57,111 bases of DNA from Rhodopila globiformis (GTDB taxonomy: Bacteria; Pseudomonadota; Alphaproteobacteria; Acetobacterales; Acetobacteraceae), in the NCBI RefSeq assembly GCF_002937115.1, contig NZ_NHRY01000257.1, forward strand, positions 1-57,111, read 5' to 3'. The position numbers and the translations under genes were made by a program. The notes beneath the pieces are model-generated. The model had not been told where the DNA came from. It did no database searches and saw nothing but the letters and a program-made list of their open reading frames with translations. Shown in pieces: positions 29,915 to 43,444 of the stretch (its first letter is position 1; the number at the start of each line of letters is the position of its first letter).

Positions 29915-30177
29915 CCGCCGTCGCCCTCCATCGCCGCCAGCACGTCCGGCGGCAGGGTGTCGAAATCGGCCGCCATGCGGATCCGGCCGCGCAGCGCCCC
30001 GGGCTGGCGTGGGGCGAGCTGCGACTGCGGCGGCGGGCCGAGTTCGGCCACCACCTGGTCGTGCGAGGTGATCAGGAACGACGCGCCCTGGCGCGCCTGG
30101 CGCAGGAATTCGGTCAGGTTCTCCCGGAACTCCCGCACGCCGACCCTGGGCGGCGGCACGGCATCGGATTGCGCCAT
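29911..30177 (-). CDS. Phd/YefM-type antitoxin
   Basis: An 88-aa antitoxin for the adjacent VapC. The N-terminal DNA-binding fold reads VGVREFRENLTEFLRQARQG then FLITSHDQVVAELGPP, the Phd pattern. The C-terminal part (RIRMAADFDTLPPDVLAAM) is the toxin-neutralising region. I prefer the ATG at 30177; a GTG at 30207 would add ten residues without homology. The pair is probably autorepressed. Confidence 0.88.
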   Translation of the reverse strand: MAQSDAVPPPRVGVREFRENLTEFLRQARQGASFLITSHDQVVAELGPPPQSQLAPRQPGALRGRIRMAADFDTLPPDVLAAMEGDGG

Positions 30178-30332
30178 CGTGGCCTGCCTACAACGGATTG
30201 TGGACACCGCGTGTGTACTCTCCGCCGCCGCCGGGTCAAGCCGGACCCGTCCGGCCCGCCAACGGGCGCGCCAGGGTTCACAAGCCGCCCGGACCCGCCT
30301 AGCCTCGTCGCCATCACATCGAGGAGGAAACG

Positions 30333-31247
30333 ATGGCAGGCATGATGGAAGGCAAGGTCGCGGTCGTCACCGGGGCCGGCGGTGGCATCGGGCGGGAGAT
30401 CGCCATCATGATGGCGGGCGCCGGCGCCAAGGTGATCGTCGCCGACATCGGCGCGTCCCTCACCGGCGAGGGCGCCTCGGCCAGCCCGGCCGAGCAGACC
30501 AAGCAGATGATCGAGCAGAAGGGCGGCGCCGCCCAGATCTGCACGGAATCGGTCGCCAGTTGGAGGTCCGCGCAGAAGATCGTCCAGGCGGCGCTGGATC
30601 ATTACGGCCGTATCGACGCGGTGGTGAACAACGCCGGCATCCTGCGCGACGTCATCTTCCACAAGATGACCGAGGACGACTGGCTGTCGGTGATTGCCGT
30701 GCACCTGAACGGCAGCTTCTTCGTCTCCCGCGCCGCGGCCGAGCACTACCGCAAGCAGGAGAGCGGCACTTTCGTGCACATGTCCAGCACCTCCGGCCTC
30801 ATCGGCAATTTCGGCCAGGCGAACTATTCGGCGGCGAAGTTAGGCATCACCGCGCTGTCGAAGTCGATCGCGCTGGACATGGCGCGCTACAACGTGCGCT
30901 CCAACTGCATCGCGCCGTTCGCCTGGAGCCGGATGACCAGCTCGATCCCGGCGACGACGCCCGAGCAGCAGGCGCGGGTGGCGAAGATCCAGCAGATGAC
31001 GCCGGACAAGAACGCGCCGATGGCGGTGTTCCTGTCGTCCGATGCGGCCAAGGGCGTCACCGGCCAGGTGTTCGGCACGCGGATGAACGAGATGATCCTG
31101 TTCAGCTCGCCGCGGCCGATAAGGATCGTGCACCGGGCGGAGGGGTGGACGCCGGAGACGATCGCGGAGCATTGCATCCCGGCGATGCAGGCGGCGTTCA
31201 TGCCGCTGGACCGGTCGGGCGACGTGTTCAGCTGGGATCCGGTGTGA
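30333..31247 (+). CDS. Short-chain dehydrogenase/reductase
   Basis: NAD(P)-dependent oxidoreductase, 304 aa. The cofactor loop is TGAGGGIG (13-20), NNAG lies at 99-102, and the catalytic Ser (about 152-154), Tyr165 and Lys169 are in YSAAK. The extended C-terminus (about 240-304, PIRIVHRAEGWTPETIAEHC) resembles the hydroxyacyl-CoA dehydrogenase part of multifunctional beta-oxidation proteins and acyl-CoA-linked SDRs. Substrate not determined. A strong GAGGAGG ribosome site precedes the ATG. It is a single gene. Confidence 0.9.
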   Translation: MAGMMEGKVAVVTGAGGGIGREIAIMMAGAGAKVIVADIGASLTGEGASASPAEQTKQMIEQKGGAAQICTESVASWRSAQKIVQAALDHYGRIDAVVNNAGILRDVIFHKMTEDDWLSVIAVHLNGSFFVSRAAAEHYRKQESGTFVHMSSTSGLIGNFGQANYSAAKLGITALSKSIALDMARYNVRSNCIAPFAWSRMTSSIPATTPEQQARVAKIQQMTPDKNAPMAVFLSSDAAKGVTGQVFGTRMNEMILFSSPRPIRIVHRAEGWTPETIAEHCIPAMQAAFMPLDRSGDVFSWDPV

Positions 31248-31285
31248 GCTGACGGGGCGTTTGATCCGGGTTTGATGTTGCCCTA

Positions 31286-31319
31286 CAGTGTGCGGGGAAA
31301 CACAGTGTGCAGGGAAACA
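31286..31319. repeat. 17-bp tandem repeat upstream of the AlbA_2 gene
   Basis: Two adjacent copies of CAGTGTGCGGGGAAACA (31286-31302 and 31303-31319), with one mismatch. They lie 17 bases before the AlbA_2 ATG and could be an operator or a simple duplication. Confidence 0.7.
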
Positions 31320-31336
31320 TCAAACTCCGGTCAAAC

Positions 31337-31723
31337 ATGCCACTCGATCGCTCCGAGGTGGACGCCGCATTGGCCCGCATATCGGCCGGCGAGGCCGCTG
31401 GCGCCCTGCAATCGGACACGCTTGATTTCAAGGAAGATCGAGCATCGGCCTGCGATATCGGGACAATGCTGGCCGACGCGGCGATCTGTTTTGCCAATGC
31501 CGCCGGCGGCATCATTGTCCTTGGCGTTTCCGACAAGATGAAGGGCGTGCCGGGCTTCACGGGCACGCGGCTCGGTCCGGGCCAGATCAAGCGGCGCATT
31601 TACGAACGCAGCAGGCCTCCGCTCGTCGTCGAGTGGAGGCCTGGATCGGCATTTCCGTCGCGGAAGCGCAAGCCCCGCCTGCCAACGGGTAGCGAGCCTG
31701 ATCCCCAGGGATCATTGCTTTAA
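31337..31723 (+). pseudogene. Truncated AlbA_2 (Schlafen-type) domain gene
   Basis: The first ~95 codons match the AlbA_2 putative DNA/ATP-binding domain: LQSDTLDFKEDRASA, LADAAICFANAAGGIIVLGV and FTGTRLGPGQIKRRIYERS. The homology ends near 31620, and the frame then runs on for about 35 unrelated Arg/Pro-rich codons. Intact proteins of this type are several hundred residues long, so the gene has lost its 3' part. The start at 31337 is followed by the usual domain start, although a GTG at 31307 is also possible. Confidence 0.65.
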
Positions 31724-32044
31724 TAAAGGAGCCTGGTTGCTCCTGCTCCGCCCGATCTGCCTCGGGCACCGCGCCGGCGGCGGCGCGGGCGATCGTCGCG
31801 GACCATTGGTTTCCGGCGGTGCAGGGGGCGCCCACATTTCACGGCCGGTCCGGCGACGTGCCCGGCGGCCCGCTGCGCTACAGCACGTCGCAGGATGGTC
31901 GGACGTCCGGTGCAGGAATACCGCGGCAGCATGCCTGTCTTCGGGCTGGGTGCGCGGCGGCCGGGGTGCCCGTCCAGAGCGGATTGCGGTGCGGCCAGCG
32001 GCGTGCGCCCCTGTCATGGCCTGGATCGGCCGCGGCCGACGATG

Positions 32045-32160
32045 GGCCGCCACAGAGTTACAGCAAACCGCAGATCGGTTGGGACAGGGCGACGGTGCAC
32101 CGACACCGTCATGGCCCGGCTTGTCCCTACCGCATGCACAGATCCTGGAAACAACCGCCG
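32045..32160 (+). repeat. REP-like repeat unit, plus orientation
   Basis: Contains ACCGCAGATCGGTTGGGACA (from about 32069) and GTCATGGCCCGGCTTGTCC (from about 32109), followed by GCATGCACAGATCCTGGAAAC. The same order of segments occurs in reverse orientation at 32560-32740, and the last segment also occurs at 50219-50247. This indicates a mobile or copied unit about 110-170 bases long. Confidence 0.65.
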
Positions 32161-32335
32161 AGCCAAGCGCTCGCCCGATGCCCCGGAAGGGTGCCGCCTT
32201 CGCCGCGCCGATGCGCGTTGGGCGGACCGGCAACTGGCCGAGGACGCGCAGGGCCGCCTCGCCGTCGTGTGACCCGCACGCATCTGGCGTGGGGCGTCGT
32301 GCCGACCGGGATGGGGCGGGGGCGGGTCTGCCACC

Positions 32336-32522
32336 GCAATCAAGCGAACACGGAGTTGCACGGTGTTCGCACGGAGTTGCGCAGAGTCGTCCGGGGCGGC
32401 CGCATCATGATCGCCTCCTTGGCGGCGTCCGATTATTTTACCCGCTTCGCGCGACGCGCATGACCAACGTTCTCTGCGGAACTCCGTGCAAACCCCGTGC
32501 AACTCCGTGTTCGCTTGATTGC
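32336..32522. repeat. Large perfect-arm inverted repeat
   Basis: A 28-bp perfect inverted repeat (32336-32363 and 32495-32522) continues inward as an imperfect stem (CGCACGGAGTTGCGCAGAG against CTCTGCGGAACTCCGTGC). Each arm has a CACGGAGTTGC motif twice, linking it to the CACGGAG-type elements elsewhere in the window. The ~110-base loop has no gene. Confidence 0.8.
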
Positions 32523-32559
32523 CGTCGGTGAAACCGGCACCAGCCATGACAGTATTGAG

Positions 32560-32740
32560 CCACGGCGGCAGCGGATCGTTTCCGGAATCTGTGCATCCGG
32601 TAGGGCCTGTCCGGGCCACCTGTCGCGGCATCGGTGCTTGAACGGGTGGCCCGGACAAGCCGGGCCATGACGGTGAAGACAGGCCGCCTGTGCGTCCCAA
32701 CCGACCTGCGGTCTGCTATAGCCAGCCGCCGCGCCGGTAC
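32560..32740 (-). repeat. REP-like repeat unit, minus orientation
   Basis: Reverse-oriented relative of 32045-32160: on the minus strand it reads CCGCAGGTCGGTTGGGAC, then GTCATGGCCCGGCTTGTCC, a second CCGGACAGGCCCTACCGGAT palindromic half, and GCACAGATTCCGGAAAC. Confidence 0.65.
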
Positions 32741-32960
32741 CGCGATGGCGGAAAAATGGGCGAGGGGTCCGTTGCCCCTCCGTCATGGCCTGATACGCAT
32801 GGGGACACGCCCGGCCATGACGATACGGGGATGACCTTGCTCCGCCCCGGTTCCATCCCCGGGCCGCATCCTGCGTGGCCCGGCGACGACACCGGCGGGC
32901 CTGCCTGTGCTCCAACGGTAACAGCTTCGTGCCGGATGTTTGATTCTTTAGCGTCCCGGT

Positions 32961-32978
32961 CTATTCTGGACCGAATAG
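32961..32978. promoter_or_regulatory. Inverted repeat upstream of gene A
   Basis: CTATTC-N6-GAATAG, perfect, 134 bases before the ATG of the 275-aa repeat protein. It could be an operator or an mRNA-leader hairpin. No similar element was recognised upstream of B or C. Confidence 0.4.
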
Positions 32979-33111
32979 GCAGCGGACCCTCGCCCCGCAT
33001 ACTTTTCAGGCTGGCTTTATCCTGTAATATCACTGCCACGTGAGAAACATGTCATGAACAAACATGTACTTGCGATGAATTAAAGGCTAGTGTCAGAAAA
33101 AGGGTGACGTC

Positions 33112-33939
33112 ATGGCCGATATCATTACACGGGTCTACGGCAGTTACGAGAATGCCCTAGCCGCCGTCAACGAGCTGAAGCTGCACCGCTTCACCGATTC
33201 CCAAATCACCGTCATCGCCGGGTCCAGCGCCCGGGCGGGCAGCGGCGGCCCGCCGTTCGACGCCGTCGTCAACGCCATCGCCGCCGGCTGGGTGCTGAAG
33301 TCCGAGGCCGCGATCTACGCGCTGAGCGTCACGCGCGGCGCCTCCCTGGTCACGGTGCGCGCGCCGTTCGGGGCCGCCGGCAACGCCACGGCGATCCTGG
33401 ACAAGCATGATCCAGTCGAATCCGGCGTGCCGGCGCGCGTGCTCCCGGGGATGCGTCCGTGGGACGAGGCGGCGCCGGCCTCCTCGGTGCTGCACATGCC
33501 GCCCCTGGCGGATCCCGACTCCTCGCTGTCGGCCATTCTCGGCCTGCCGATGCTGACGAAGCGCGGCCGCACCCTGTGCACGGCGCTGCATATGCCGGAG
33601 CTTGTCGGCCGCGCCCGCGCCAGGACGACGCTGCTCGGGCCGGCGATCCTGAAGGGCGCCCCCCGGATCATGGGCGGCTCGGTGACCCGCGGCCCGGCCT
33701 ATCTGTCCTCGGCGCTGCACATCAAGCTGCTGCTGAGCCACGAGGCCTCGCTGTCCCGCTTCCTCGACATGCCCTGGCTGCGGCGCTTCGCGACCCCGCT
33801 GTCCTCCCTGCTGCACATTCCGACGCTGATCAACAGTTCCGCCTCGCTGTCGGGGCTGCCGCGGCTGTCGGGCAGCGGCACGGTGTCGTCCTGCGTCGGC
33901 CTCCCGACCCTGACCAGGGACCGGACCGCGCGGTCCTGA
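33112..33939 (+). CDS. Repeat protein A: YflT-like domain plus degenerate tandem repeats
   Basis: Unrecognised 275-aa protein, paralogous to the products at 34795 and 38833. The N-terminus (about 1-100: IITRVYGSYENALAAVNELK, SQITVIAGSS, VTRGASLVTVRAPFGAAGNA) has the alpha/beta pattern of YflT/general-stress-protein-17M domains. Residues about 122-270 contain roughly nine or ten units of 12-17 residues with pattern LSxxLhxPxL, for example SSLSAILGLPMLTKRG and TPLSSLLHIPTLINSS. The units are more degenerate than in B and C, and the repeat Trp is mostly replaced by Met, Ile or Leu. No signal peptide or membrane helix. The AAGGG ribosome site fits the ATG at 33112. Confidence 0.8.
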   Translation: MADIITRVYGSYENALAAVNELKLHRFTDSQITVIAGSSARAGSGGPPFDAVVNAIAAGWVLKSEAAIYALSVTRGASLVTVRAPFGAAGNATAILDKHDPVESGVPARVLPGMRPWDEAAPASSVLHMPPLADPDSSLSAILGLPMLTKRGRTLCTALHMPELVGRARARTTLLGPAILKGAPRIMGGSVTRGPAYLSSALHIKLLLSHEASLSRFLDMPWLRRFATPLSSLLHIPTLINSSASLSGLPRLSGSGTVSSCVGLPTLTRDRTARS

Positions 33940-34794
33940 GTATAGGGCGCCGGCGATGCCGCCCCCATTGGATGTGGCAGAAGGCTCTCCAGCTCTGGCC
34001 CTGCCCATCATTGGCAAGCGATGGGGAATGGGGGGCTGAAGCCGGGCCGGGCGGCCGCAGCGCCCCCCTGGAAACGTCCGTGTTTGTTCATCCTTCCGCG
34101 ATTCTCACCACGGAGGAAGATGAAGGACGACGAAGCACCACGGAGACCGGACCTTGCGGGCGCACCGGGACCGGACGAACCGCATTCCTGGGCTGGCGAT
34201 CAAGACGCTTCGCAGCGTCGCCTCGCCTGCCCGAAGCGGTTTATGGCTTGTACCTGACGCACGGCCCGTGCTGCATCATTGGCTGACTCGTTCACACCCT
34301 TCGTGGTCCTCCGTGGATTCTTCGCGTTCTCCGTGTTGAAAGCAGTCGCCAATCCGGCCTCTGCCGTTGCCCTGGCCCGCCCGGGACAACACTGCCGCCG
34401 TCCCGCCGTCGCAAGAACCCAGGGTATGGGAGCGGACTCTTCGGCGGCCGATCGTGGCGCCGGGGCGGTTCCGCGCCGTGCGGCGAGCGCCGGCATGCCC
34501 GCGGCCGTTGATCGGCCCCGGCGCGGGGCAGCAGTGGCGGCTCCCCCATTCTGTGTACACATGCGTTGTACGCACAAGCTGAAGCCTCCGGCGCTTTCCC
34601 CGCGCCGGGAAACAGGGAATCCGACGGCCGGATCAGCGGCAATCCGTCCATTGTCAACACCGGGCGACGCTTCCGGCGCACGGCAGGCATGAGTGTCACG
34701 CAGAAAATACGTCAACGAAAGTGTACATCATGGGTTGATGGAGGACCGGTAATGCGGTAGCAAAGCCCTGCCCCTTTCACGGAAGTGTGGATCA
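33940..34794. other. Intergenic region between repeat-protein genes A and B
   Basis: No gene is supported in these 855 bases. The central part (34078-34346) is the better preserved copy of the long inverted-repeat element. The remainder (34347-34700) has only low-complexity frames, and the last ~100 bases before B are AT-richer and likely hold its promoter. Confidence 0.5.
34078..34346. repeat. Long inverted-repeat element, copy II
   Basis: The left end has TTCATCCTTCCGCGATTCTC, CACGGAGGAAGATGAAGGAC and CACCACGGAG; the right end (34296-34340) has CCTTCGTGGTCCTCCGTGGA and CTTCGCGTTCTCCGTGTTGA. The ends are imperfectly complementary. The internal part also corresponds to copy I (26206-26445), for example GGACCGGACGAACCGCATTC against CCTGACCAACCGCATTGTTG. 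Confidence 0.7.
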
Positions 34795-35475
34795 ATGACC
34801 GTTATTGCCATCCGTATTTACGACGCTCCTCAGAACGCGAAGAGCGCCGTCACCAAGCTGAAGAAGAGCAACGTCAACGACAGCCAGATCGCCGTCGTTT
34901 CTGGCGAAGGCAAGACCGCGGCTGACGTCGCTGCCGCCATCACGGCGGCCGGCATCCCGGCGGCCAACGCCTCGGCGCTGGCAGCCTCGGTCGCCAAGGG
35001 CGGCACGATGGTTGCCGTCTGCCCGCTGTTCGGCCGCGCCGCCGAAGCCGCGGAAATCCTCGACAGCTGCAGCCCGACCGAGGCTTGCGAGCTGGCCACC
35101 GGCGCGCAGCCGGACGCGAAGAACGACGCCGGCGCCGGCCAGGCGCTGTCGGCCGCCGCCGGCTGGGACCTGCTGTCCAGCGACCCGACCCCGCTGTCCT
35201 CCAAGATGAACTGGAAGCTACTGTCGGACAACAAGTTCCCGGCTTCCAAGCTGTTCGGCTGGGGCATGCTGTCGAACAACAAGTTCCCGGCCTCCAGCGC
35301 CTTCAGCTGGAAGCTGCTGTCGGACAAGAAGTTCCCGGCTTCGTCGGCGTTCAACTGGAAGCTGCTGTCGGACACGAAGTTCCCGCTGTCCTCCAAGTAC
35401 GGCTGGTCGCTGCTGTCCAACAACGCCACCCCGCTGTCGGACAAGCTGGGCTGGCCGGTCCTGTCGAAGAAGTAA
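34795..35475 (+). CDS. Repeat protein B: YflT-like domain plus seven 16-residue repeats
   Basis: Unrecognised 226-aa protein. Residues 1-95 form the same alpha/beta domain as A and C (VIAIRIYDAPQNAKSAVTKL, SQIAVVSGEGK, VAKGGTMVAVCPLFGRAAEA). Residues 117-226 are seven units with a near-perfect period of 16: for example PLSSKMNWKLLSDNKF, PASSAFSWKLLSDKKF, PASSAFNWKLLSDTKF and PLSSKYGWSLLSNN. The invariant core is Ser-x3-Phe/Leu-x-Trp-x-hLeu-Ser. At DNA level the 48-bp units are highly similar, so the array is young. No signal peptide or membrane helix. The ribosome site is weak. A bulged hairpin follows the stop codon. Confidence 0.85.
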   Translation: MTVIAIRIYDAPQNAKSAVTKLKKSNVNDSQIAVVSGEGKTAADVAAAITAAGIPAANASALAASVAKGGTMVAVCPLFGRAAEAAEILDSCSPTEACELATGAQPDAKNDAGAGQALSAAAGWDLLSSDPTPLSSKMNWKLLSDNKFPASKLFGWGMLSNNKFPASSAFSWKLLSDKKFPASSAFNWKLLSDTKFPLSSKYGWSLLSNNATPLSDKLGWPVLSKK

Positions 35476-35507
35476 GCCTGTTTCTTTCTTAACGGAAATG
35501 GGCGCGG

Positions 35508-35534
35508 GGCGGGGCGATGGCGACATCCCCCGCC
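35508..35534 (+). terminator. Bulged GCGA-tetraloop hairpin after gene B
   Basis: GGCGGGG-C-GATG, loop GCGA, CATC-CCCCGCC: an 11-bp stem with one bulged C, 33 bases after the stop codon. The same architecture, sequence and tetraloop recur at 38563-38593 after the membrane-protein gene. No T-run follows. Confidence 0.65.
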
Positions 35535-35720
35535 TCACGGGCTTTCTCCGCGTCGTGGCCGCCAGCCGACGCTACGCGCGGACCGGTCCAAGATGGCGTT
35601 ATAGATCCGGCCCTGATCGTCTTGACTGCCAGGCCGTAAATCGCAACAGGAACAGCCCGGCTGCGTTCGAGCCACCGTGGCCGCAGGCCGCCCCAATTTA
35701 GCAATCGCAGGCCGCCCCAG

Positions 35721-35873
35721 TTTCTTCTCTGCGTGCTCTGCGTTGAATCGCAGTGGCCGGGGCACCACCGGCGTTGCAGGTGGGACGATTCACGCGCAGC
35801 ATTGTTCTTTGTTGCGGCACCGCATTTTTAAAACGCAGAGACCGCCGAGCGGAGCGCAGAGCGCGCAGAGACG
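35721..35873. repeat. GCAGAG-type inverted-repeat element
   Basis: Left end TTTCTTCTCTGCGTGCTCTG then CGTTGA (35721-35745); right end AAACGCAGAGACCGCCGAGC then CGCAGAGCGCGCAGAGACGG (35831-35873), roughly complementary. It resembles in design the CACGGAG elements. A short tandem repeat GCAGGCCGCCCCA (about 35682 and 35708) precedes it. No gene lies in 35476-35980. Confidence 0.6.
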
Positions 35874-35980
35874 GAATCGGATGCCCTGCGGCGCGGCGGC
35901 CGTGCCCCGCTTCCGTTCTGTCAACGCCTGGGCGGACAAGCCCGGCGACGACGGCAAGGCAACGGCCACCCGGGCCGGCA

Positions 35981-37216
35981 TCAGCGCAATGACGCCAGCA
36001 TTCGGCCTGACCCGGGGCTGTCGAAGCGGCGATAGCGCGCCTCCCGCGCCACCACCGCGGCCACGTAGCGGCGGGTTTCCTCATACGGCAGCTGCATGGT
36101 CAGCCGCTGCAACGTTTCCTCCGGCGACAGCGTGTTGATCAGCCGCGCAGCGCTGGCAATCCGCGTCGTGCCGTTGAACGCCTTGGCGACGTTGCCGGCG
36201 CCGGTGTTATAGGCCGCGATCACGGCATAGGTGCGGCTCGTCGTGTCGGAAATGGCCTTCAGATACTGGCTGTACAGAATCTTCAGGTAGGCCGAGCCCA
36301 GCGCGATATTGGTATCCGGATCATACAGCGTGTTGGCATCCGGCTCCTTCGGCACGCCGTACAGATAGGCCCAGGCATCGCGGCCGGCGGTCCGCGGCAC
36401 CAGTTGCATCAGGCCGTAGGCCGGCACCGGCGACCGGGCGCGCGGATTGAACGCGCTCTCGGTCTCGATCACCGCGTAGATCAGCGACGGCTCCAGCCCG
36501 TGACGCTTTGCCGCCTGCTCCACCGGCTCGACATAGTGCGCGGCGAGGATCAGGAAATGGTCGTCCTCAAACCGCACGCGGTAGGTCAGCATCACCCGCT
36601 TGTGGCCATCCTCGCCGGTGACCGGCGTGCGCTGCAGCGCCGCAGGCTTCAGCTTCGCAATGGCGTCGGCCGGCATCAGGCCGGCGAGCACCGGCGTCTC
36701 GTTCTCCGGCGTGGCCGGCATCGGCGTCGCGTCCGGCGGCGGCGCCCCGGCGATCTTCGCGGCCAGCTTGGCAACGATGTCATCGGCGGGCATCTCGGCG
36801 GGCGTCAGCGTCTCGGCGACCTGCAGCCGCTTGCGCAGTCTGGCGACGGCTTCCTCCATCGTATCCGCCTGTTTGTCGGCGTCGACCAGCACCTGGGCGG
36901 TGAAGACGCCATACTCGAAATCCATCTCGCCGCGGCCGGTCAGGTCCGCGCTGTGCGACACCCAGGTCTTGGCCGTCGGCAGCCTGGCGTTGCCGGGACC
37001 CCAGAGCTGCGTGCACTCGTGGGTCAGGCGGCGCGTCGCCTCCTGCATCGCCTCCTGCATGGTGAGGTCATCGGTATCAGGGACGGTCGTGGCGCCGTCG
37101 GCAAGTCTCGCGGCCGGCGCGATGCCATGCGAGGCGCATCCGGCGGCAAGCAGCGTGCAGCCGAGCAGGAACGCGCGGCGGGGCAGCGCGTGGCGTGGGC
37201 GGGATGTGTCGCTTAT
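35981..37216 (-). CDS. MltC-like lytic transglycosylase lipoprotein
   Basis: Predicted outer-membrane-anchored murein transglycosylase. The lipobox is LLAAGC after PRRAFLLGCT. An MltC-type N-terminal domain follows, then the SLT domain in the last ~170 residues: YAVIETESAFNPRA with the catalytic Glu, YGLMQLVPRTAG, SAYLKILYSQYL and IAAYNTGAGNVAKAFNG. The start is unclear. No in-frame ATG or GTG lies near the signal peptide; an ATA at 37216 sits 8 bases after AGGAG and gives 411 aa. The frame is open further to a TTG at 37486 (501 aa), which would bury the signal peptide about 100 residues inside. It is divergent from the membrane-protein gene at 37541. Confidence 0.83.
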   Translation of the reverse strand: MSDTSRPRHALPRRAFLLGCTLLAAGCASHGIAPAARLADGATTVPDTDDLTMQEAMQEATRRLTHECTQLWGPGNARLPTAKTWVSHSADLTGRGEMDFEYGVFTAQVLVDADKQADTMEEAVARLRKRLQVAETLTPAEMPADDIVAKLAAKIAGAPPPDATPMPATPENETPVLAGLMPADAIAKLKPAALQRTPVTGEDGHKRVMLTYRVRFEDDHFLILAAHYVEPVEQAAKRHGLEPSLIYAVIETESAFNPRARSPVPAYGLMQLVPRTAGRDAWAYLYGVPKEPDANTLYDPDTNIALGSAYLKILYSQYLKAISDTTSRTYAVIAAYNTGAGNVAKAFNGTTRIASAARLINTLSPEETLQRLTMQLPYEETRRYVAAVVAREARYRRFDSPGSGRMLASLR

Positions 37217-37540
37217 CGGCGGGGCTCCTGGAAAAGAATGCCCGTCCGCCTTGGCATGAGCCTGGGTGGCGCGATGTGACGAAGTAAACGACTCCGCTTT
37301 TTTCGTCTGCCAGAAGTGACAAAGGCCACAACTGGCTACTTTTCCCGTCAGTTGACTTAATCGAGAAGAATACTGCGTCTTTGTCTCGCCGTGACCAGGA
37401 CCACGCGACAAAACACCGGAAACGTAACCCCCGTCACTGCCCCACGCCGCGGCGCCTGCTGAAACCGGCGGCGACGACAGCGCCAATCCATCGCAACCGT
37501 CTGTCGCCGATTATTGGCATTATTTGAAAAGGAACGATCC

Positions 37541-38527
37541 ATGCTCCGCACCATGGGCCGCCGCCTCAATGGCGTTGGCCAACTCGTGCTGTCGCTCGGC
37601 CCGCCGATCATCGTCGTCGTCGGCCTGGGCATCACCGTGAAGCTCGCGGTCGACGTCGTGCAGGTCACCCGCGCCAAGGTCGAGGCCATCGCCGACACCG
37701 TCAACGACCAGATCACCCCGCGCATCGCCGCCATCCGCGCCGGCTACGAGTCCGTCGCCGCCGACGCCCAGCGGCTGGACGCGCAGATCGGCCAGACCTT
37801 CCAGACCCTGGCGTCGCTGCAGGACATCAGCATCCAGCCGGGCCAGTTCGGCACCGCCGGCGGCCAGCAGGTCCGCATCCCCGAGAACGACGTCTGGGTT
37901 GGCCCGATCAAAATCGGCAGCGGCTCGGTGGCGAACAACGCGCTGCCGACCATCACCCTGCCGAGCCAGCCGGTGAACATCCCGATCACGCCGCTGCGCC
38001 AGGCGTTCGCGCCGCTCGGCCCGAACGGCCCGCTCGGGCAGGGCATCCAGGCCGCGCAGGCCGAGCTTGGCCGCACCGTCGGCGCCGTGAAGGACCTTGG
38101 CGGCCCGCTGGACCAGGTCATCGGCACCGTCCAGGGCTGGGCCGCGCCGTTCACCAGCACCGTCAGCCACCTGGTGATGATCGCCGGCCTGGTGGTCGCC
38201 GCAGTGGTGGCGCTGCTGCTGGCCTATGTCGTCGCCGGCGTGACGTTCGCCATCCGCCGCCGCCCGGAAGCCGCTTGCGCCTATCGCAACGGCGGCGAAA
38301 TCGGCTACGTCATGTGGGTGCACCGCACGATGATCCTGGACGGCCTCGCCCGGGTCCGTGGCCGCGATCCGCTCGCCCTGCGGCCGCCCAGCCCGCAGGA
38401 CCTCCAGCGCACCATCGAGGCGCTGCAGGCCGAACTGCAGGCGCTGCGGGCGACCGTGGAAGGCAGGCCCCAGCCTGTGCCGGCGACCGATGTGCCCGCA
38501 ACGGACGTGCCCGTGCTGGCCGCCTGA
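37541..38527 (+). CDS. Two-helix membrane protein of unknown function
   Basis: A 328-aa protein I do not recognise. A first membrane helix is at about residues 14-40 (LVLSLGPPIIVVVGLGITVKL). A long mainly helical then Pro/Gly-rich region follows (about 45-200), with paired motifs such as NDQITPRIAAIRAGYESVAA and ITPLRQAFAPLGPNGPLGQG. A second helix is at about 207-238 (VMIAGLVVAAVVALLLAYVV), and the tail ends in a probable coiled coil (PQDLQRTIEALQAELQALRA). AAGGA precedes the ATG. It lies between repeat-protein genes B and C and opposite an MltC-like gene, suggesting envelope function, but no homologue is identified. Confidence 0.75.
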   Translation: MLRTMGRRLNGVGQLVLSLGPPIIVVVGLGITVKLAVDVVQVTRAKVEAIADTVNDQITPRIAAIRAGYESVAADAQRLDAQIGQTFQTLASLQDISIQPGQFGTAGGQQVRIPENDVWVGPIKIGSGSVANNALPTITLPSQPVNIPITPLRQAFAPLGPNGPLGQGIQAAQAELGRTVGAVKDLGGPLDQVIGTVQGWAAPFTSTVSHLVMIAGLVVAAVVALLLAYVVAGVTFAIRRRPEAACAYRNGGEIGYVMWVHRTMILDGLARVRGRDPLALRPPSPQDLQRTIEALQAELQALRATVEGRPQPVPATDVPATDVPVLAA

Positions 38528-38562
38528 TCCCCGAAGCCGGCCTGCCGGACATGTCAACCAGC

Positions 38563-38593
38563 CGAGGCGGGCGGTGGCGACACCCCCGCCTCG
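38563..38593 (+). terminator. Bulged GCGA-tetraloop hairpin after the membrane-protein gene
   Basis: CGAGGCGGG-C-GGTG, loop GCGA, CACC-CCCGCCTCG: a 13-bp stem with one bulged C, 36 bases after the stop codon. It is clearly related to 35508-35534, with compensatory A-T to G-C change in the upper stem. Confidence 0.7.
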
Positions 38594-38678
38594 AGGGCTG
38601 TACCGGCCGCGGGCGCCGTCGTTGCAGGACCGGGGGTTCCGGGCCGGACTCATCCCGCGCCACGCCGCCGCGCCGGCA

Positions 38679-38700
38679 ATGTCGCGTTACAGTGCGACAT
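38679..38700. promoter_or_regulatory. Inverted repeat upstream of gene C
   Basis: ATGTCGC-N8-GCGACAT, perfect, ending 132 bases before the ATG of repeat protein C. Candidate operator; the regulator is unknown. Confidence 0.45.
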
Positions 38701-38832
38701 GACCCGGCACACGGCGGCGAGGCATTTCGCCGGACGGGCTGTACACCGTCACGCTTTCAAATCCTCGCCAGCAAGCGGTGCGCTGCCAACCGGCGCGTTA
38801 CATATGCTTCGCGCAAAAAACGGAGAGGAACC

Positions 38833-39612
38833 ATGCCAGTCACCGTGACCCGCATCTACGACAGCCCGGAAAAGGCCCGGCAAGCCGCGGACGAACTGAA
38901 GAAGTTCACCACGGAGAGCCAGATCCACGTCGTCAACCCCGGTGGACAGGATGCGGAGGCGGTCCTGGCCGCGACCGGCATGTCCGCCGGCAGCGCCAAG
39001 GCCTATGCCGAGGCGGTGGGTCGCGGCCGCTCGGTCGTCACCGTCACGCCGATGTTTGGCACCGCCGGCCGCGCGACCGAAGCCCTCGACGGCGCCGGCC
39101 CGGTCGACACCCACATCACCGACGTGCCCGACACGGTCGAGCGCCGCCCGCGGCGCGCGGCGGGCGCGACCGGCAGCGCCACCGTGGCGGACCCGGCGGC
39201 GCCGCTGTCGTCGAAGTTCGGCTGGGAGGTGCTGGACACGGACAACCCGACGCCGCTGTCCGACAAGGCCGGCTGGAAGGTGCTGTCGCCGAACAACCCG
39301 ACCCCGCTGTCGAGCTGGCTGGGCTGGAAAGTGCTGTCGGATCGGCAGGACGCCAAGGCCTCCCTGATGCACGACCCCACGCCGCTGTCGTCGAAATTCG
39401 GCTGGCGCGTGCTGACCAGCGACCCGGCGCCGATCTCGCGCAAGTTCGGCTGGCGCGTGCTGTCGGACGACCCGGCGCCGCTGTCGCGCAAACTGGGGTG
39501 GCGGGTGCTGTCCGAGGACCAGAAGGGACGCGCCTCGCTGATCCACGACCCCGCCCCGCTGTCGCGCTGGCTGGGACTGCCGGTGCTGCTGAACGAGAGC
39601 CGGAAGGGCTGA
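38833..39612 (+). CDS. Repeat protein C: YflT-like domain plus seven repeats in two registers
   Basis: Unrecognised 259-aa paralogue of A and B. N-terminal domain about 1-95 (VTVTRIYDSPEKARQAADEL, SQIHVVNPGG, VGRGRSVVTVTPMFGTAGRA). After a basic linker (RRPRRAAGATG), residues about 123-259 hold seven repeats, for example APLSSKFGWEVLDTDNPT, PLSDKAGWKVLSPNNPT and PISRKFGWRVLSDDPA. Two of them carry the same ten-residue extension with core KASLMHDPT or RASLIHDPA, giving the spacing 17-17-26-16-16-26. The last unit changes GW to GLPVLL. GAGAGGA precedes the ATG at 38833; the open frame continues upstream without similarity. A terminator-like hairpin follows. Confidence 0.85.
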   Translation: MPVTVTRIYDSPEKARQAADELKKFTTESQIHVVNPGGQDAEAVLAATGMSAGSAKAYAEAVGRGRSVVTVTPMFGTAGRATEALDGAGPVDTHITDVPDTVERRPRRAAGATGSATVADPAAPLSSKFGWEVLDTDNPTPLSDKAGWKVLSPNNPTPLSSWLGWKVLSDRQDAKASLMHDPTPLSSKFGWRVLTSDPAPISRKFGWRVLSDDPAPLSRKLGWRVLSEDQKGRASLIHDPAPLSRWLGLPVLLNESRKG

Positions 39613-39639
39613 CAACTGGCCTGATCGGACGACGGGATC

Positions 39640-39670
39640 GCGCCGGTGGTTCATGCCTCCGGCGCTTTCT
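39640..39670 (+). terminator. Terminator after repeat protein C
   Basis: GCGCCGG-N12-CCGGCGC followed directly by TTTCTG, 27 bases after the stop codon. A reasonable short intrinsic terminator. Confidence 0.6.
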
Positions 39671-39764
39671 GTCATAAGGCAGCCGTTGCGGCACCGTCTG
39701 TGCCTGATGGCTGATGCACAAGCAGCGAAACCGTTGGACTGGTTGCCTCGGCCGCGCTGAGGGG

Positions 39765-39987
39765 AAAGCACGCCCAAACGTCGCCGTCGGGGCAGCGAAG
39801 CGATTCGTTGGAACGACTACCTTGTTCGGCCCGAAGACTACCGGATCGCAGTCGCGCCGATGGACGCGGAACAGCGGCGTCCCCACCGCCACATGGTCAA
39901 TTGGCAGCGTCCTGGCAGCCAGACCGGCGGCATCGGCGCGTGCGGCCAGATGAGCCGCGCGGTGGTGACGATGTCAGGCAAATCCAT
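39765..39987 (-). pseudogene. Remnant of a RES-domain toxin gene
   Basis: An ATG at 39987 overlaps the end of the ParS-type antitoxin remnant (ATGGATTTGCCTGA), the usual RES/Xre gene order. The opening MDLPDIVTTARL is in one frame. The recognisable RES core VAVGTPLFRVHRRDCDPVVF then GPNK...NRFAAP is in another, so at least one frameshift has occurred near 39905-39920. Homology is lost after about 39765, well short of a full RES domain (NAD-degrading toxin family). Confidence 0.6.
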
Positions 39988-40505
39988 CGCCGTGCTGTAT
40001 GCGAAGTACCCGAGCGAGCGCGTCGGTCCAGCCTTCGCTGCGAAGTATGGCGAGCGGCGTCCTGCCGTTCAATGCGTCATCCGGCGACAGGAGCAGATCC
40101 AGCACCACCCACGGGTTGGCGACCTTCGTCTCCCACAGGAAGCGCGGCAAATCGGCGACGACATCGTGCCGAGCCTCGTCGAACTGGCATCGAGGATACT
40201 AAGAAGGCGGTCAAACGCCTACCATTTCACCAAGCCAGACCATTGAACTTCCTATAAAAAGTGGCATGGTTGGGTGGCCGCGTGGCGAGGGATTGACCGG
40301 TTCCTTAGTAATGCCAGTCCCCGCCCTGCCGCAGGCCGAGCAATCCGTTCGACCGCCGGCGCTTGTCCACGGCCTGCCGGCTTATTGCGAGCAGCCGGGC
40401 CACCACGGACGCGTTCGGCGTGCCGCCGGCCGCTTGAAGCAAGTCCAGGCGGTGCCCGGCGTTGCGGGCGATAAGTGGCGCGAGCGGTTCCACGGCAGAC
40501 TGCAT
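39974..40505 (-). pseudogene. Xre/MbcA/ParS-type antitoxin gene split by an insertion
   Basis: The 5' part (40505-40309) encodes QAAGGTPNASVVARLLAISR then QAVDKRRRSNGLL and GGDWHY, the helix-turn-helix region of ParS-like antitoxins. The 3' part (40198-39974) encodes PRCQFDEARHDVVADLPRF and the toxin-binding end LDLLLSPDDALNGRTPLAIL then RIQHGDGFA. Removing the 110-bp insert at 40199-40308 and one TA copy restores a continuous GDWHYPRCQFDEARHD. The insert introduces a stop immediately after the first part. Confidence 0.8.
40199..40308. mobile_element. 110-bp MITE-like insertion with TA duplication
   Basis: The insert has imperfect terminal inverted repeats CTAAGAAGGCGGTCAA and CTAAGGAACCGGTCAA (3 mismatches in 16) and is flanked by TA on both sides (40197-40198 and 40309-40310). 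Excision of the element and one TA restores the antitoxin reading frame exactly. It has no coding capacity. TA target duplication is the hallmark of Tc1/mariner and IS630-type transposases, so a related full-length IS should exist in the genome. Confidence 0.82.
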
Positions 40506-40670
40506 TTCGCTATGGGACAGCGGATTTGGCATACAGAGCCTGTTTGACTGAGTTCCTCTTGCGGAAGCGGCCGATGATTTGAACGCCGGCGGCATGGATA
40601 GGCTATGTCTGCGTTTCGGCTGGTTGAGGGCCATTGGCAGCGGGCGTGCGGGTGGATCGTCCTGGAATGT

Positions 40671-40900
40671 AACCACAGAGGAAAACTGAGGGTCGCGGAG
40701 GGCCACAGGGAAGATGTTCGGGCGCTACGGGCGAAGCGCATGACAACCGGCACCGCCGCACCATGAATCGCCCGGCATCGCCGCACGGGTGGACCGGCGA
40801 CGCTACCCGCCACGACGCCAACACCCGCACCAGCCTGCGCGACATCCCCCTGACGCTCCGCGGCCCTCCAAGGGCCTCAGTCATTCTCTGTGCGAACAGA
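40671..40900. repeat. CACGGAG/CAGAGG-type inverted-repeat element
   Basis: Left end (40671-40716) ACCACAGAGGAAAACTGAGG, GTCGCGGAGGGCCACAGGG; right end (40842-40900) CCTGACGCTCCGCGGCCCTC and GGGCCTCAGTCATTCTCTGT. The ends are complementary over about 45 bases with gaps. Between it and the PIN remnant (40901-41090) I see no gene. Confidence 0.6.
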
Positions 40901-41090
40901 AATACGCCATCAACCACGCTGTCCCAACCGGGGGCACACCATCCCCGACCACGGCCAAGCCGGACCAGGAAGCCCACGCCTCAATCCTTCACGCATGCCT
41001 CCCGGCACCAGTTTCCACCCAGACAGCAACCGCTCCAGACCTCAACGCCCAATGCAATCAAACAGATGGGGTGGACGGCCCCAAGGGCTC

Positions 41091-41496
41091 TCAACGCGAT
41101 GCTTCCTGCACGAACGTGGCAGGTTGACAATCGGGATGCCGCGAAAAGGATTGAGGACGAGCAAATCGGAATCGCCGGTTAAAATGGAATCGGCATGACC
41201 GTTCACCGCGAGTTCCAGGAATTTGTCGTTAGTGGAATCGCGACAAGCTGCAATTCTCTCGGCAATCGTGACCAGTTCCGCCTTCGTCATCAGTTGCCTG
41301 AACCATTCAGAGGTTGCCGGTGCGATCAATGGCACCAGGTTATGGTCGCGCGATGACAGCGAGAAGCTGTGCCTCCGTCGCGGCTGATTTGAGCACGACA
41401 CCGCGTTGCGCCGCCAAACGCAATGCGACGGCGGGAAGGGACTTGTCTTTAAAGCGCGGCGCTGACGAAGACGTTGGTATCGACAACAACTCTCAT
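41091..41496 (-). pseudogene. PIN-family toxin gene with three frameshifts
   Basis: The reading starts MRVVVDTNVFVSAAL (ATG at 41496, overlapping the antitoxin stop). An extra base near 41450 shifts it into KDKSLPAVALRLAAQRGVVL then KSAATEAQLLAVIARP. A second extra base near 41341 shifts it again into PLIAPATSEWFRQLMTKAEL and DSILTGDSDLLVLNPFRGIP. A missing base near 41124 is needed to reach the expected end PATFVQEASR and the stop at 41091. Every part matches the COG1569-type PIN toxin, so the gene decayed only recently. Confidence 0.85.
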
Positions 41497-41726
41497 GCAA
41501 TCCTTGGCTCGACTTCGTGTTGAGCCTGCTTGATGAGCCTGTCGATGTCAGCATCCGACAAACCGGCGGCGACAACTTTCGTGCGGGATTCGCGGCGACC
41601 GGGGATCAACTCACCTTCCGGCTCTATCGTCAGAGTTACCCGTTCGTCGGAACTGATCCCGCGACGTTGCAGCTCAGCCGCGATCTCTCCGGCGGTAACT
41701 TCGATGACGCTCGGTGCCGATGCCAT
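41493..41726 (-). CDS. Antitoxin of a PIN toxin pair (orphaned)
   Basis: A 77-aa protein starting MASAPSVIEVTAGEIAAELQ and ending DADIDRLIKQAQHEVEPRIA. It is typical of small antitoxins encoded just upstream of COG1569-type PIN toxins. Its stop codon overlaps the toxin ATG. The antitoxin frame is intact while the toxin is frameshifted, so it may now serve no neutralising role or may act on related toxins. The start at 41726 is chosen because the sequence upstream is non-homologous. Confidence 0.8.
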   Translation of the reverse strand: MASAPSVIEVTAGEIAAELQRRGISSDERVTLTIEPEGELIPGRRESRTKVVAAGLSDADIDRLIKQAQHEVEPRIA

Positions 41727-41932
41727 AGTCTGTCCTCTCTGTCGGTAGCAGGGCCGAAGCTGCACCATGTTTGCGTGATAGCAGGGAGCGATGTCCTTGT
41801 TCAAACATCTGCCGCCGTGGAAATCCCCCGTGTTTTGTCGCCCGCGATATTCTCCGTCATCAGTGCATTGGTATACAGCGTCACCGCCTCCCACCCGCAC
41901 CGCCTCGGCCTCAGCGGCAACCGCCCGCCGGA

Positions 41933-43444
41933 TCATTCCGCCGCCGCTTCCTCCAGGTCCTCCACCGCCGCCGCCGCCAGCCCCATCGCCTGTGCCAGCC
42001 GTTCCAGCCGCCTGATCACCGCCTCGCCGGCGAACACGCCGCTGTTCGGCCGCAGGTGCAGCGCCAGCTTGCCGTCCTCGACCCGCAGCCAGGTGCCGGC
42101 CAGCAGGTTCCGCGTGCCGGCGGACAGCGTATAGGCCAGCCCCAGCGCCAGCCCCAGCAACTCGGCGCGGCCCGCGCTCTCCAGGTCCAGCAGCAGGCGC
42201 GCCGGCCGCAGGAACGCGGCGTCCGGGCCTGCGTCGTAGCGCCCGGCCACGCCCAGCGCCAGGAACGCCCGCGACGGATGGTCCAGCCCCAGCCCGGGCT
42301 GGCGCAGCACCCGCAGGAAGGCCTGCTCGGCGCGGAACTCGGGATGGTCGTGGCTGCCGATGTCCGACATCCAGCACATCGCCTCGCGCAGCTTGGTGAT
42401 GGCCGGCCGCTCGCCGCGGAACAGTGGCCGGGTCCATTCGATCAGCGCCGGCGGCAGCTCCGGGTCGCGGCCGTGCCGTGCCGCCAGTTCCCATGCCGCG
42501 CTGTGCAGCGGCTCCTGCTCGCGGATCGCCGCCGGCATCCGGCGCATGAACCAGCCCTCGCGCAGGCCCGAGGCGCTGAACACCACCCGCCGCGCGCTGG
42601 TCCGCCGCAGCAGCCGGCGCAGCACCATCCCGGCGAACGGCAGGTCGTCGATCCGCCGGCGCGGCGCCCCCGGCAGCCGCTCCAGCGTCCGGCGCGGCGC
42701 CGTCGCCAGCATGTCGGCCAGCGTCCGCGCGTCCTCCCGGGCGACGGTGTAGTGGTGCACCATGGCCAGCGGGTAGTTGGCCTGGAGCATCTGGATGCGC
42801 GCCAGCGCCCGGAACGCGCCGCCGACGAGATAAAGATCGCTGCCCGACGCCTGCGCCAGCCACGGCACCGAATCCAGGTCCGCATCAGCCAGCGCCCGCG
42901 CCCGCGCCATGTCGCCGCCCGAGCGCTCGGCCAGCCGGATCACCCCCAGCGGCAGCGTCTGCGACTCGCCGCGCCGCCCGTCGGCCAGCCGGATCACCTC
43001 CAGCGAGCCGCCGCCGATATCCGCCAGCACGCCCTCGGCATCCGGGATGCCGCACAGCATGCCGTCGGCCGAATACGCCGCCTCCTCCTCGCCCGACAGA
43101 ATCCGGATCGCCACGCCCGGCATGCGCTCCTGCAAGGCCGCGACGAAGGCCGGCCCGTTGGAGGCGTCGCGCACCGCGGCGGTGGCCAGCACCTCGAACG
43201 GATGCGCCCCCATGGCGCGGGCGACGGCGTGGTAGCGGTGCATCACCGTCAGCGCCAGCGCCATGCCCTCTTCGTTCAGCTTCCCGGTCGCCTGCAAGCC
43301 CCGCCCCAGCCGCAGCACCGCCTTTTCATTGAAGATCGGCAGAGGATTGCGCGTATGCCCCTCATAGACCACCAATCGAACCGAATTGGACCCGAGGTCC
43401 ACGACACCACACCGGGGCAGCCTGGGAGGGGATGCGAAGGGCAT
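41933..43444 (-). CDS. ppx: Ppx/GppA-family exopolyphosphatase
   Basis: Hydrolyses terminal phosphate from polyphosphate (or pppGpp), 503 aa. The ASKHA-fold motifs are VVDLGSNSVRLVVYEG (about 14-29), LSGEEEAAYSADGML and VLADIGGGSLEVIRLADGRR. The C-terminal ~180 residues form the HD-like helical domain (MCWMSDIGSHDHPEFRAEQA). It starts three bases after the ppk stop codon, so synthesis and breakdown of polyphosphate are encoded in one unit. Confidence 0.94.
   Translation of the reverse strand: MPFASPPRLPRCGVVDLGSNSVRLVVYEGHTRNPLPIFNEKAVLRLGRGLQATGKLNEEGMALALTVMHRYHAVARAMGAHPFEVLATAAVRDASNGPAFVAALQERMPGVAIRILSGEEEAAYSADGMLCGIPDAEGVLADIGGGSLEVIRLADGRRGESQTLPLGVIRLAERSGGDMARARALADADLDSVPWLAQASGSDLYLVGGAFRALARIQMLQANYPLAMVHHYTVAREDARTLADMLATAPRRTLERLPGAPRRRIDDLPFAGMVLRRLLRRTSARRVVFSASGLREGWFMRRMPAAIREQEPLHSAAWELAARHGRDPELPPALIEWTRPLFRGERPAITKLREAMCWMSDIGSHDHPEFRAEQAFLRVLRQPGLGLDHPSRAFLALGVAGRYDAGPDAAFLRPARLLLDLESAGRAELLGLALGLAYTLSAGTRNLLAGTWLRVEDGKLALHLRPNSGVFAGEAVIRRLERLAQAMGLAAAAVEDLEEAAAE

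Follow-up and report, generated by a model that had tools for sequence, protein, structure and literature searches.

The DNA analysed here (the window) is a stretch of 57,111 nucleotides from Rhodopila globiformis, contig NZ_NHRY01000257.1, and carries three paralogous genes, A, B and C, each of which encodes an N-terminal alpha/beta domain (N-domain) followed by a region of short tandem repeats. On balance, we take A, B and C to be dispersed members of a family that belongs to light-harvesting complex 2 (LH2), as this explains the observations best as a whole; they are probably accessory antenna proteins and not cell-wall or general stress proteins. That the family as such is associated with LH2 we hold with high confidence, as its members mostly lie beside the LH2 genes pucB, pucA and pucC and follow the presence of LH2 from genome to genome. 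The stress role suggested in the first-pass annotation of this DNA is not borne out. No description of the family was found in a literature survey that covered few subscription papers.

Association of the family with LH2 genes

A search of a class sample of 385 genomes with profile A1 (E<=1e-5) gave 34 genomes with a match. It should be noted that in this search, and in those of the phylum and of the Rhodobacteraceae-like family described below, scoring was confined to the 7 best first-look candidates of each genome; hence misses are possible and absence is less sure than presence. Genomes with repeats, or with a gene adjoining LH2, were counted as carriers, and eleven qualify (G000, G084, G122, G148, G153, G156, G180, G205, G304, G384 and G398). 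The other 23 matches are to the N-domain. Four of these have no locus and were left unread (G197, G349, G235 and G331), while none of the 19 loci read holds a repeat unit of at least 15 bits and 16 of them show, by pattern, a Gly-rich hydrophobic insert.

Leaving aside the A-B-C clusters and the Rhodobacteraceae-like family, all 13 carriers that were read have the family gene in an LH2-gene context. The order pucB-pucA-family gene, followed by pucC in the same orientation, is found in G084, G122, G180, G398, G148 and G304, with about 2.2 kb between family gene and pucC in G122; in G384 and G205 a second pucBA pair follows the family gene before pucC, again on one strand. The gene is divergent from pucBA in G153 and convergent in G156, the contig of G450 ends after pucB-pucA-family gene, and G786 has pucB-pucA-pucC-family gene. 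In G009, a member of the window's genus, the gene follows pucC on a 6.3-kb contig whose end cuts the LH match. Two of the neighbours in G084 were compared with Pfam and matched PUCC (E 1.3e-146) and LHC (E 3.6e-14).

Profile A2 (E<=1e-8) matched 11 of 398 genomes of a phylum sample. Here G638 and G806 have the order pucB-pucA-pucC-family gene, and G490 and G624 have N-domain matches with no LH genes within the 8-10 kb read. The same order recurs in the family of G744, which we call Rhodobacteraceae-like, a label inferred from the LH2 alpha of G744. Of its 394 genomes searched, 48 match (E<=1e-6), and co-directional pucB-pucA-pucC-family gene was detected in 44 of the 48 by LH2-alpha, LH2-beta and PucC models built from sequences collected in this analysis; the locus of G835 is cut by a contig end. 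Further copies are unlinked (G613:C1, G814:C2 and G991:C43). In the family of G205, 6 of 17 genomes match and four are carriers (G205, G304, G384 and G450), the weak matches G446 and G447 being left unread.

The tight linkage to pucC would also suit an LH2 assembly factor, whose tail transiently binds nascent alpha and beta chains and which, together with PucC, delivers bacteriochlorophyll or limits ring size. PucC is an LH2 assembly protein in Rba. sphaeroides, according to the part of PMC4949548 available to us, and in G806 the called pucC runs 4 nt into the start of the family gene. Linkage to pucC would, however, be no less expected if the protein were a subunit, and the regular spacing of the repeat units described below better suits a structural role matched to the ring than a chaperone. 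We regard an assembly factor as rather unlikely.

To compare gene content we took a PF00124 match as evidence of a reaction centre (26 of the 385 class genomes) and read LH2 from the number of LHC matches, more than 2 indicating LH2 and exactly 2 LH1 alone. PF00124 is found in 10 of 11 carriers and in 16 of the 374 other class genomes (Fisher 3.2e-12); the eleventh carrier, G156, has a completeness of 84%, and the contig with its family gene also holds LHC matches and BchP. The carriers with a reaction centre have 4-8 LHC matches. The reaction-centre genomes that lack the gene number 16: fifteen have exactly 2 (two of them, G092 and G184, being less than 85% complete), and G185 has 4. Thus, among the 26 reaction-centre genomes, carriers make up 10/11 of those with more than 2 LHC matches and 0/15 of those with exactly 2 (Fisher 2.1e-6). 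Within the window's genus (33 genomes) the four genomes with A-B-C have 8-10 LHC matches and the four other reaction-centre genomes have 2, that is 4/4 against 0/4 (Fisher 0.029). All these Fisher values overstate independence because the genomes are related. G009 has one family member and no reaction centre was found in it, at 98% completeness and 8% contamination.

We also looked for the pattern TGTN12ACA, which we take to be a PpsR-like box. In G084, G180, G384 and G205 it precedes the family gene by 553-596 nt; G304 and G009 have none within 600 nt upstream. In two relatives with A-B-C (G006 and G008) it stands at -114 of A, a third (G025) has a similar box, and in the window it occurs at -207 of A only, with none at B or C. 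We regard these putative boxes as a mere hint; the pattern occurs 3-9 times per locus and was counted without a shuffle control.

Two side observations concern the puc loci. In G667 (L182 3478-5403) two family members, one short and one long, stand in tandem after pucC. A peptide deformylase gene directly follows a PucC-type gene in 6 of 13 loci (L071-L076), and the one tested matched TIGR00079 (E 9.2e-42). Since the modified N-terminal Met of LH2-alpha ligates B800, as given in the accessible part of PMC9618040, a deformylase dedicated to LH2-alpha is conceivable.

Repeat units and N-domain

The C-terminal regions of A, B and C have their highest self-similarity at lag 16, with an identity of 0.21, 0.49 and 0.24, respectively, and for each protein the maximum over lags 8-40 was reached by 0 of 5000 shuffles. 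The 16-residue period of the first-pass annotation thus stands for all three proteins. Its core PLSSkfGWkvLS suits B and C, while the units of A resemble LSSxLHIPxL and have no GW. From 13 family proteins we collected 74 full units with a consensus near PxPLSSxFG[LMW]PxLSKN, in which L13 is kept in 67 units, G9 in 60, S5 in 59 and a Ser at position 6 in 45. The GW core is a B and C variant of a wider [FL]G[LWMI][PK]xL[ST] unit. The units of the 13 proteins are mostly 16 residues apart, a period found in A, B and C and in most LH2-linked members outside the Rhodobacteraceae-like family (G384 and G205 are irregular), and an identical layout of seven units with spacings 25,16,16,16,16,16 is shared by G148, G122 and G180, which represent three families. 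The carrier G153 has a single unit of at least 15 bits. In the long Rhodobacteraceae-like forms about 8 units like HARMANFPIPLISRRKPFTGSIFSR can be counted by eye. The pitch is not constant at 16 across the family. In the unlinked paralogues of G613 (L148 4637-5686) and G814 (L227 4064 onward) the arrays are long and built of 15-residue units such as MAKFPFAHLVPGHKF.

The repeats gave no significant match to Pfam, PHROGs, NCBIfam or PDB sequences, A being included in the PDB search only as a row of profile A2, in keeping with the earlier statement that no named repeat family with this core is known. The weak matches were to PHROGs of unknown function over 13-19 residues (E 0.0019 and 0.0046) and to DUF6301 (E 0.015). 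Sequence searches found no solved homologue of the repeats; one gave no hit at all, the best hits of two others had E 1.2 and 1.1, and neither is an antenna protein.

Multivalent repeats might alternatively serve a scaffold of the photosynthetic membrane that cross-links several LH2 rings or shapes vesicles, LH2 then being one of several partners, and the presence of three paralogues in R. globiformis, a genome with 8 LHC matches, would fit such a role. The unit layout is, however, conserved in three families and the linkage is to LH2 genes; a scaffold seems improbable to us.

The N-domain was earlier said to resemble YflT/GSP17M. The resemblance is distant: against YflT (PF11181), B scores 23.2 bits (E 9.7e-5) and A 14.7 bits (E 0.046), C has no match, and all three fall short of the Pfam gathering cut-off of 26.2 bits. 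A, B and C furthermore lack the Gly-rich hydrophobic insert that this domain has in most of the stress-type, N-domain-only homologues read, and unlike those they have repeats. A tree of the N-domains sets two stress-type proteins on a separate branch, with an unsettled placement among the family.

AlphaFold gives the N-domain of B (residues 1-100) a predicted local distance difference test score (pLDDT) of 74-90 in blocks of ten. The repeats of B stay at pLDDT <50 with almost no secondary structure, in a prediction that used only 9 sequences, and so lend no support to the folded solenoid suggested before. The N-domain of B is predicted to be ferredoxin-like, nearest to PII, with ActD also listed (best Foldseek E 0.25). 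In this model the likeness to PII and ActD is a resemblance of fold only; PII/GlnK and ActD have 12-13% identity to the N-domain, and sequence evidence of membership is absent. Among these folds is ActD of alternative complex III (6btm_D, root-mean-square deviation 2.0), and a common origin of the family N-domains, ActD and the stress-type YflT homologues is possible.

Genes A, B and C and their surroundings

The first-pass annotation proposed three paralogous genes, and these were confirmed as open reading frames (ORFs) with exactly the coordinates given (Table 1). A has 1:1 orthologues in G006 and G025, and in a tree that included these two relatives every one of A, B and C clusters with its orthologue there, with starred support. 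Ratios of nonsynonymous to synonymous substitution (dN/dS) for the whole genes are 0.07-0.19 among the relatives G006, G008 and G025 and 0.32-0.56 between the window and these relatives. All three genes are under purifying selection, which is weakest in the repeats of B (0.78-0.86, window against relatives).

Table 1. Positions in the window of the three family genes, their repeat regions and the two genes lying between B and C
Feature	Position	Strand	Basis or remark
Gene A, 275 amino acids; N-terminal alpha/beta domain and degenerate 16-residue repeats without GW	33112..33939	+	ORF
Repeat region of A with 6 recognisable units, such as ATPLSSLLHIPTLINS	33469..33921	+	unit scan
Gene B, 226 amino acids	34795..35475	+	ORF
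Repeat array of B, 7 recognisable units, strict 16-residue (48-nt) spacing	35137..35472	+	
MltC-like lytic transglycosylase (SLT domain), neighbour outside the system	35981..37486	-	PF01464 E 9.3e-30
Uncharacterised protein (membrane protein in the first-pass annotation), neighbour outside the system	37541..38527	+	ATG 37541; listed TTG ORF start 37514
Gene C, 259 amino acids	38833..39612	+	ORF
Repeat array of C, 7 recognisable units, spacings 17,17,26,16,16,26	39196..39597	+	unit scan

A search of its own genome with B as query (E<=1e-3) recovered, apart from B, only C at 42% identity and, at 39%, the N-terminal part of A. The claim that these are the only paralogues in the window therefore holds within the scope of the B query, and a profile search of the whole genome adds two distant N-domain matches, on C32 and C70. 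The repeat region of A has a linker, WDEAAPxSS, in common with the LH2-linked members of G009 and G786. The separate transcription units of the first-pass annotation find no support: apart from intergenic gaps of 855 nt (A-B) and 3357 nt (B-C), a scan for promoters and terminators yielded 1 and 5 sites where shuffles gave means of 0.6 and 3.7. A mobile or phage origin of the family was rejected on tblastn searches at E<=0.01, which returned no match for B in phages and none in plasmids for C or for three LH2-linked relatives. A structured RNA was likewise rejected, as no Rfam match reached the gathering score within 30000-42000.

The first-pass annotation connected A, B and C with the cell envelope on account of the two genes they surround. 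The MltC model gives the transglycosylase 169 bits against a cut-off of 375, and the other protein has no significant family match. Both genes are indeed flanked by A-B-C in the window, but this arrangement is not conserved: in all three relatives with A-B-C (G006, G008 and G025) the order is an SDR gene, A, B, C and two convergent, ppx- and ppk-like genes, the neighbours being named by eye, with B and C separated by 320, 403 and 404 nt, respectively, and neither the transglycosylase nor the membrane gene between them. The cell-wall link thus falls. A stress-induced cell-envelope or peptidoglycan-binding repeat protein, as first read from the distant YflT match and the adjoining MltC-like gene, appears very improbable to us, given that the transglycosylase is missing from the cluster of every one of these relatives, that homologues mostly stand beside puc genes, and that the N-domain-only homologues read have no repeat unit of at least 15 bits.

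The antenna genes of R. globiformis itself lie elsewhere. Its genome (G000) has 8 LHC matches, its LH1-alpha is identical in 61/61 residues to chain A of 7XXF, the R. globiformis LH1-reaction centre structure, and on contig C156 no family gene interrupts pucBA-pucC; any action of A, B and C on the LH2 from this contig would hence be in trans. An LH2 role of A, B and C in R. globiformis is thus something we infer from their homologues. Two pairs of PF00124 matches correspond to two pufLM sets, on contigs C156 and C226, and beyond the LH alpha adjoining pufLM we find two further kinds, an MNQGRLW type beside pucC (C156 39092-39283) and a DYKFWLVVNPA type in two alpha-beta pairs (C234 47611-48322).

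A possible third subunit of LH2

The known antenna protein to which the family can best be compared is the gamma polypeptide of Rps. palustris LH2 (RPA1495; PDB 7ZCU, 7ZDI, 7ZE3 and 7ZE8). According to the part of PMC9618040 available to us, it has been reported only in Rhodopseudomonas and forms an extended ribbon that covers 6 of the 9 alpha-beta pairs at the cytoplasmic face, the Ser of each unit ligating one extra bacteriochlorophyll. The unit is printed there as 15 residues, whereas the deposited chain 7zcu_S has six units at 16-residue spacing. Gamma and the family share a tandem period of 16 residues (seen in A, B and C), one conserved Ser per unit, a P-L-[LI] core in many units and an association with LH2, which is physical for gamma and genetic for the family. 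Gamma and B are also alike in having no regular secondary structure, as observed in gamma and predicted in B.

Further comparisons concern other accessory antenna polypeptides. PucE of R. capsulatus is a 14-kDa LH2 gamma chain, smaller than A, B and C. As far as the accessible parts of the sources go, the gene order pucBACDE is named in PMC9231093 and pucDE are counted among the photosystem structural genes in PMC9603517. Compared by position only, PucD and PucE stand after pucC like the family gene in the 44 Rhodobacteraceae-like genomes and unlike A, B and C. The LH1 gamma-like polypeptide of R. globiformis (PDB 7XXF) is an accessory antenna polypeptide of the same organism, but it is a 22-residue transmembrane peptide (PMC9640540, from the part available to us) of another architecture than proteins of 226-275 amino acids.

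Because of the shared period of 16, the conserved Ser and the identical seven-unit layout in three families, a gamma-like ribbon is the likeliest mechanism, and by analogy with gamma we give it an even chance. The ferredoxin-like N-domain would dock on the cytoplasmic side, and the repeat tail, as an extended ribbon, would follow the outer face of the LH2 ring with one unit per alpha-beta pair and so stabilise the ring. The conserved Ser of the units may in addition ligate extra bacteriochlorophyll, as in Rps. palustris gamma; we consider pigment binding by the units possible but doubtful.

Several observations weigh against an LH2 accessory protein of this kind. As to gene content, no LHC match shares a contig with A-B-C in R. 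globiformis or in the three relatives, so that their function in R. globiformis follows by homology only. G185 has pucBA then pucC with no family gene between, despite its LH2, and the weak Rhodobacteraceae-like matches G933 (with a partial PucC match), G1151 and G1095 have no adjoining LH genes. Moreover, the search of the 15 LH1-only genomes used profile A1 and may have missed members, and the co-occurrence counts leave out LH2 among the 346 Rhodobacteraceae-like genomes without a match. As to the repeats, in 33 mostly Rhodobacteraceae-like proteins the best lag is 25 or 26 in 26 (taken without a shuffle control), and in 15 the identity at the best lag is below 0.20, so the repeats of these proteins are often faint. 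Finally, gamma has 97 amino acids in the PDB and no alpha/beta N-domain, and profile A2 finds no gamma at E<=10. Among 20000 column permutations, 2357 equal or exceed the observed score with all units, 1537 with puc-type units and 8824 with the units of A/B/C. Homology to gamma by repeat position-specific scoring matrix and column permutation was not significant in five tests; a core test gave 117/20000, which we discount since its patterns were written after gamma had been seen.

LH2 is usually described as alpha and beta chains with pigments, and with PucC for its assembly. Tentatively, and at less than even confidence, we speculate that many alphaproteobacterial LH2 antennas may have an overlooked third subunit, with a ferredoxin-like head and a ring-wrapping ribbon that adds bacteriochlorophylls, whose repeats would differ in length (15, 16 or 25-26) and number between lineages. 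Gamma would then be a stripped-down or convergent form, and the LH2 structures solved without such a protein would come from lineages without the gene or from preparations that lose it. If this is true, a gene that follows LH2 through several families with a repeat architecture of its own would change the parts list of LH2 and could account for additional 800-nm absorption or for the stability of the ring in non-model species, and the gamma polypeptide would no longer be a Rhodopseudomonas oddity but one case of a wider principle.

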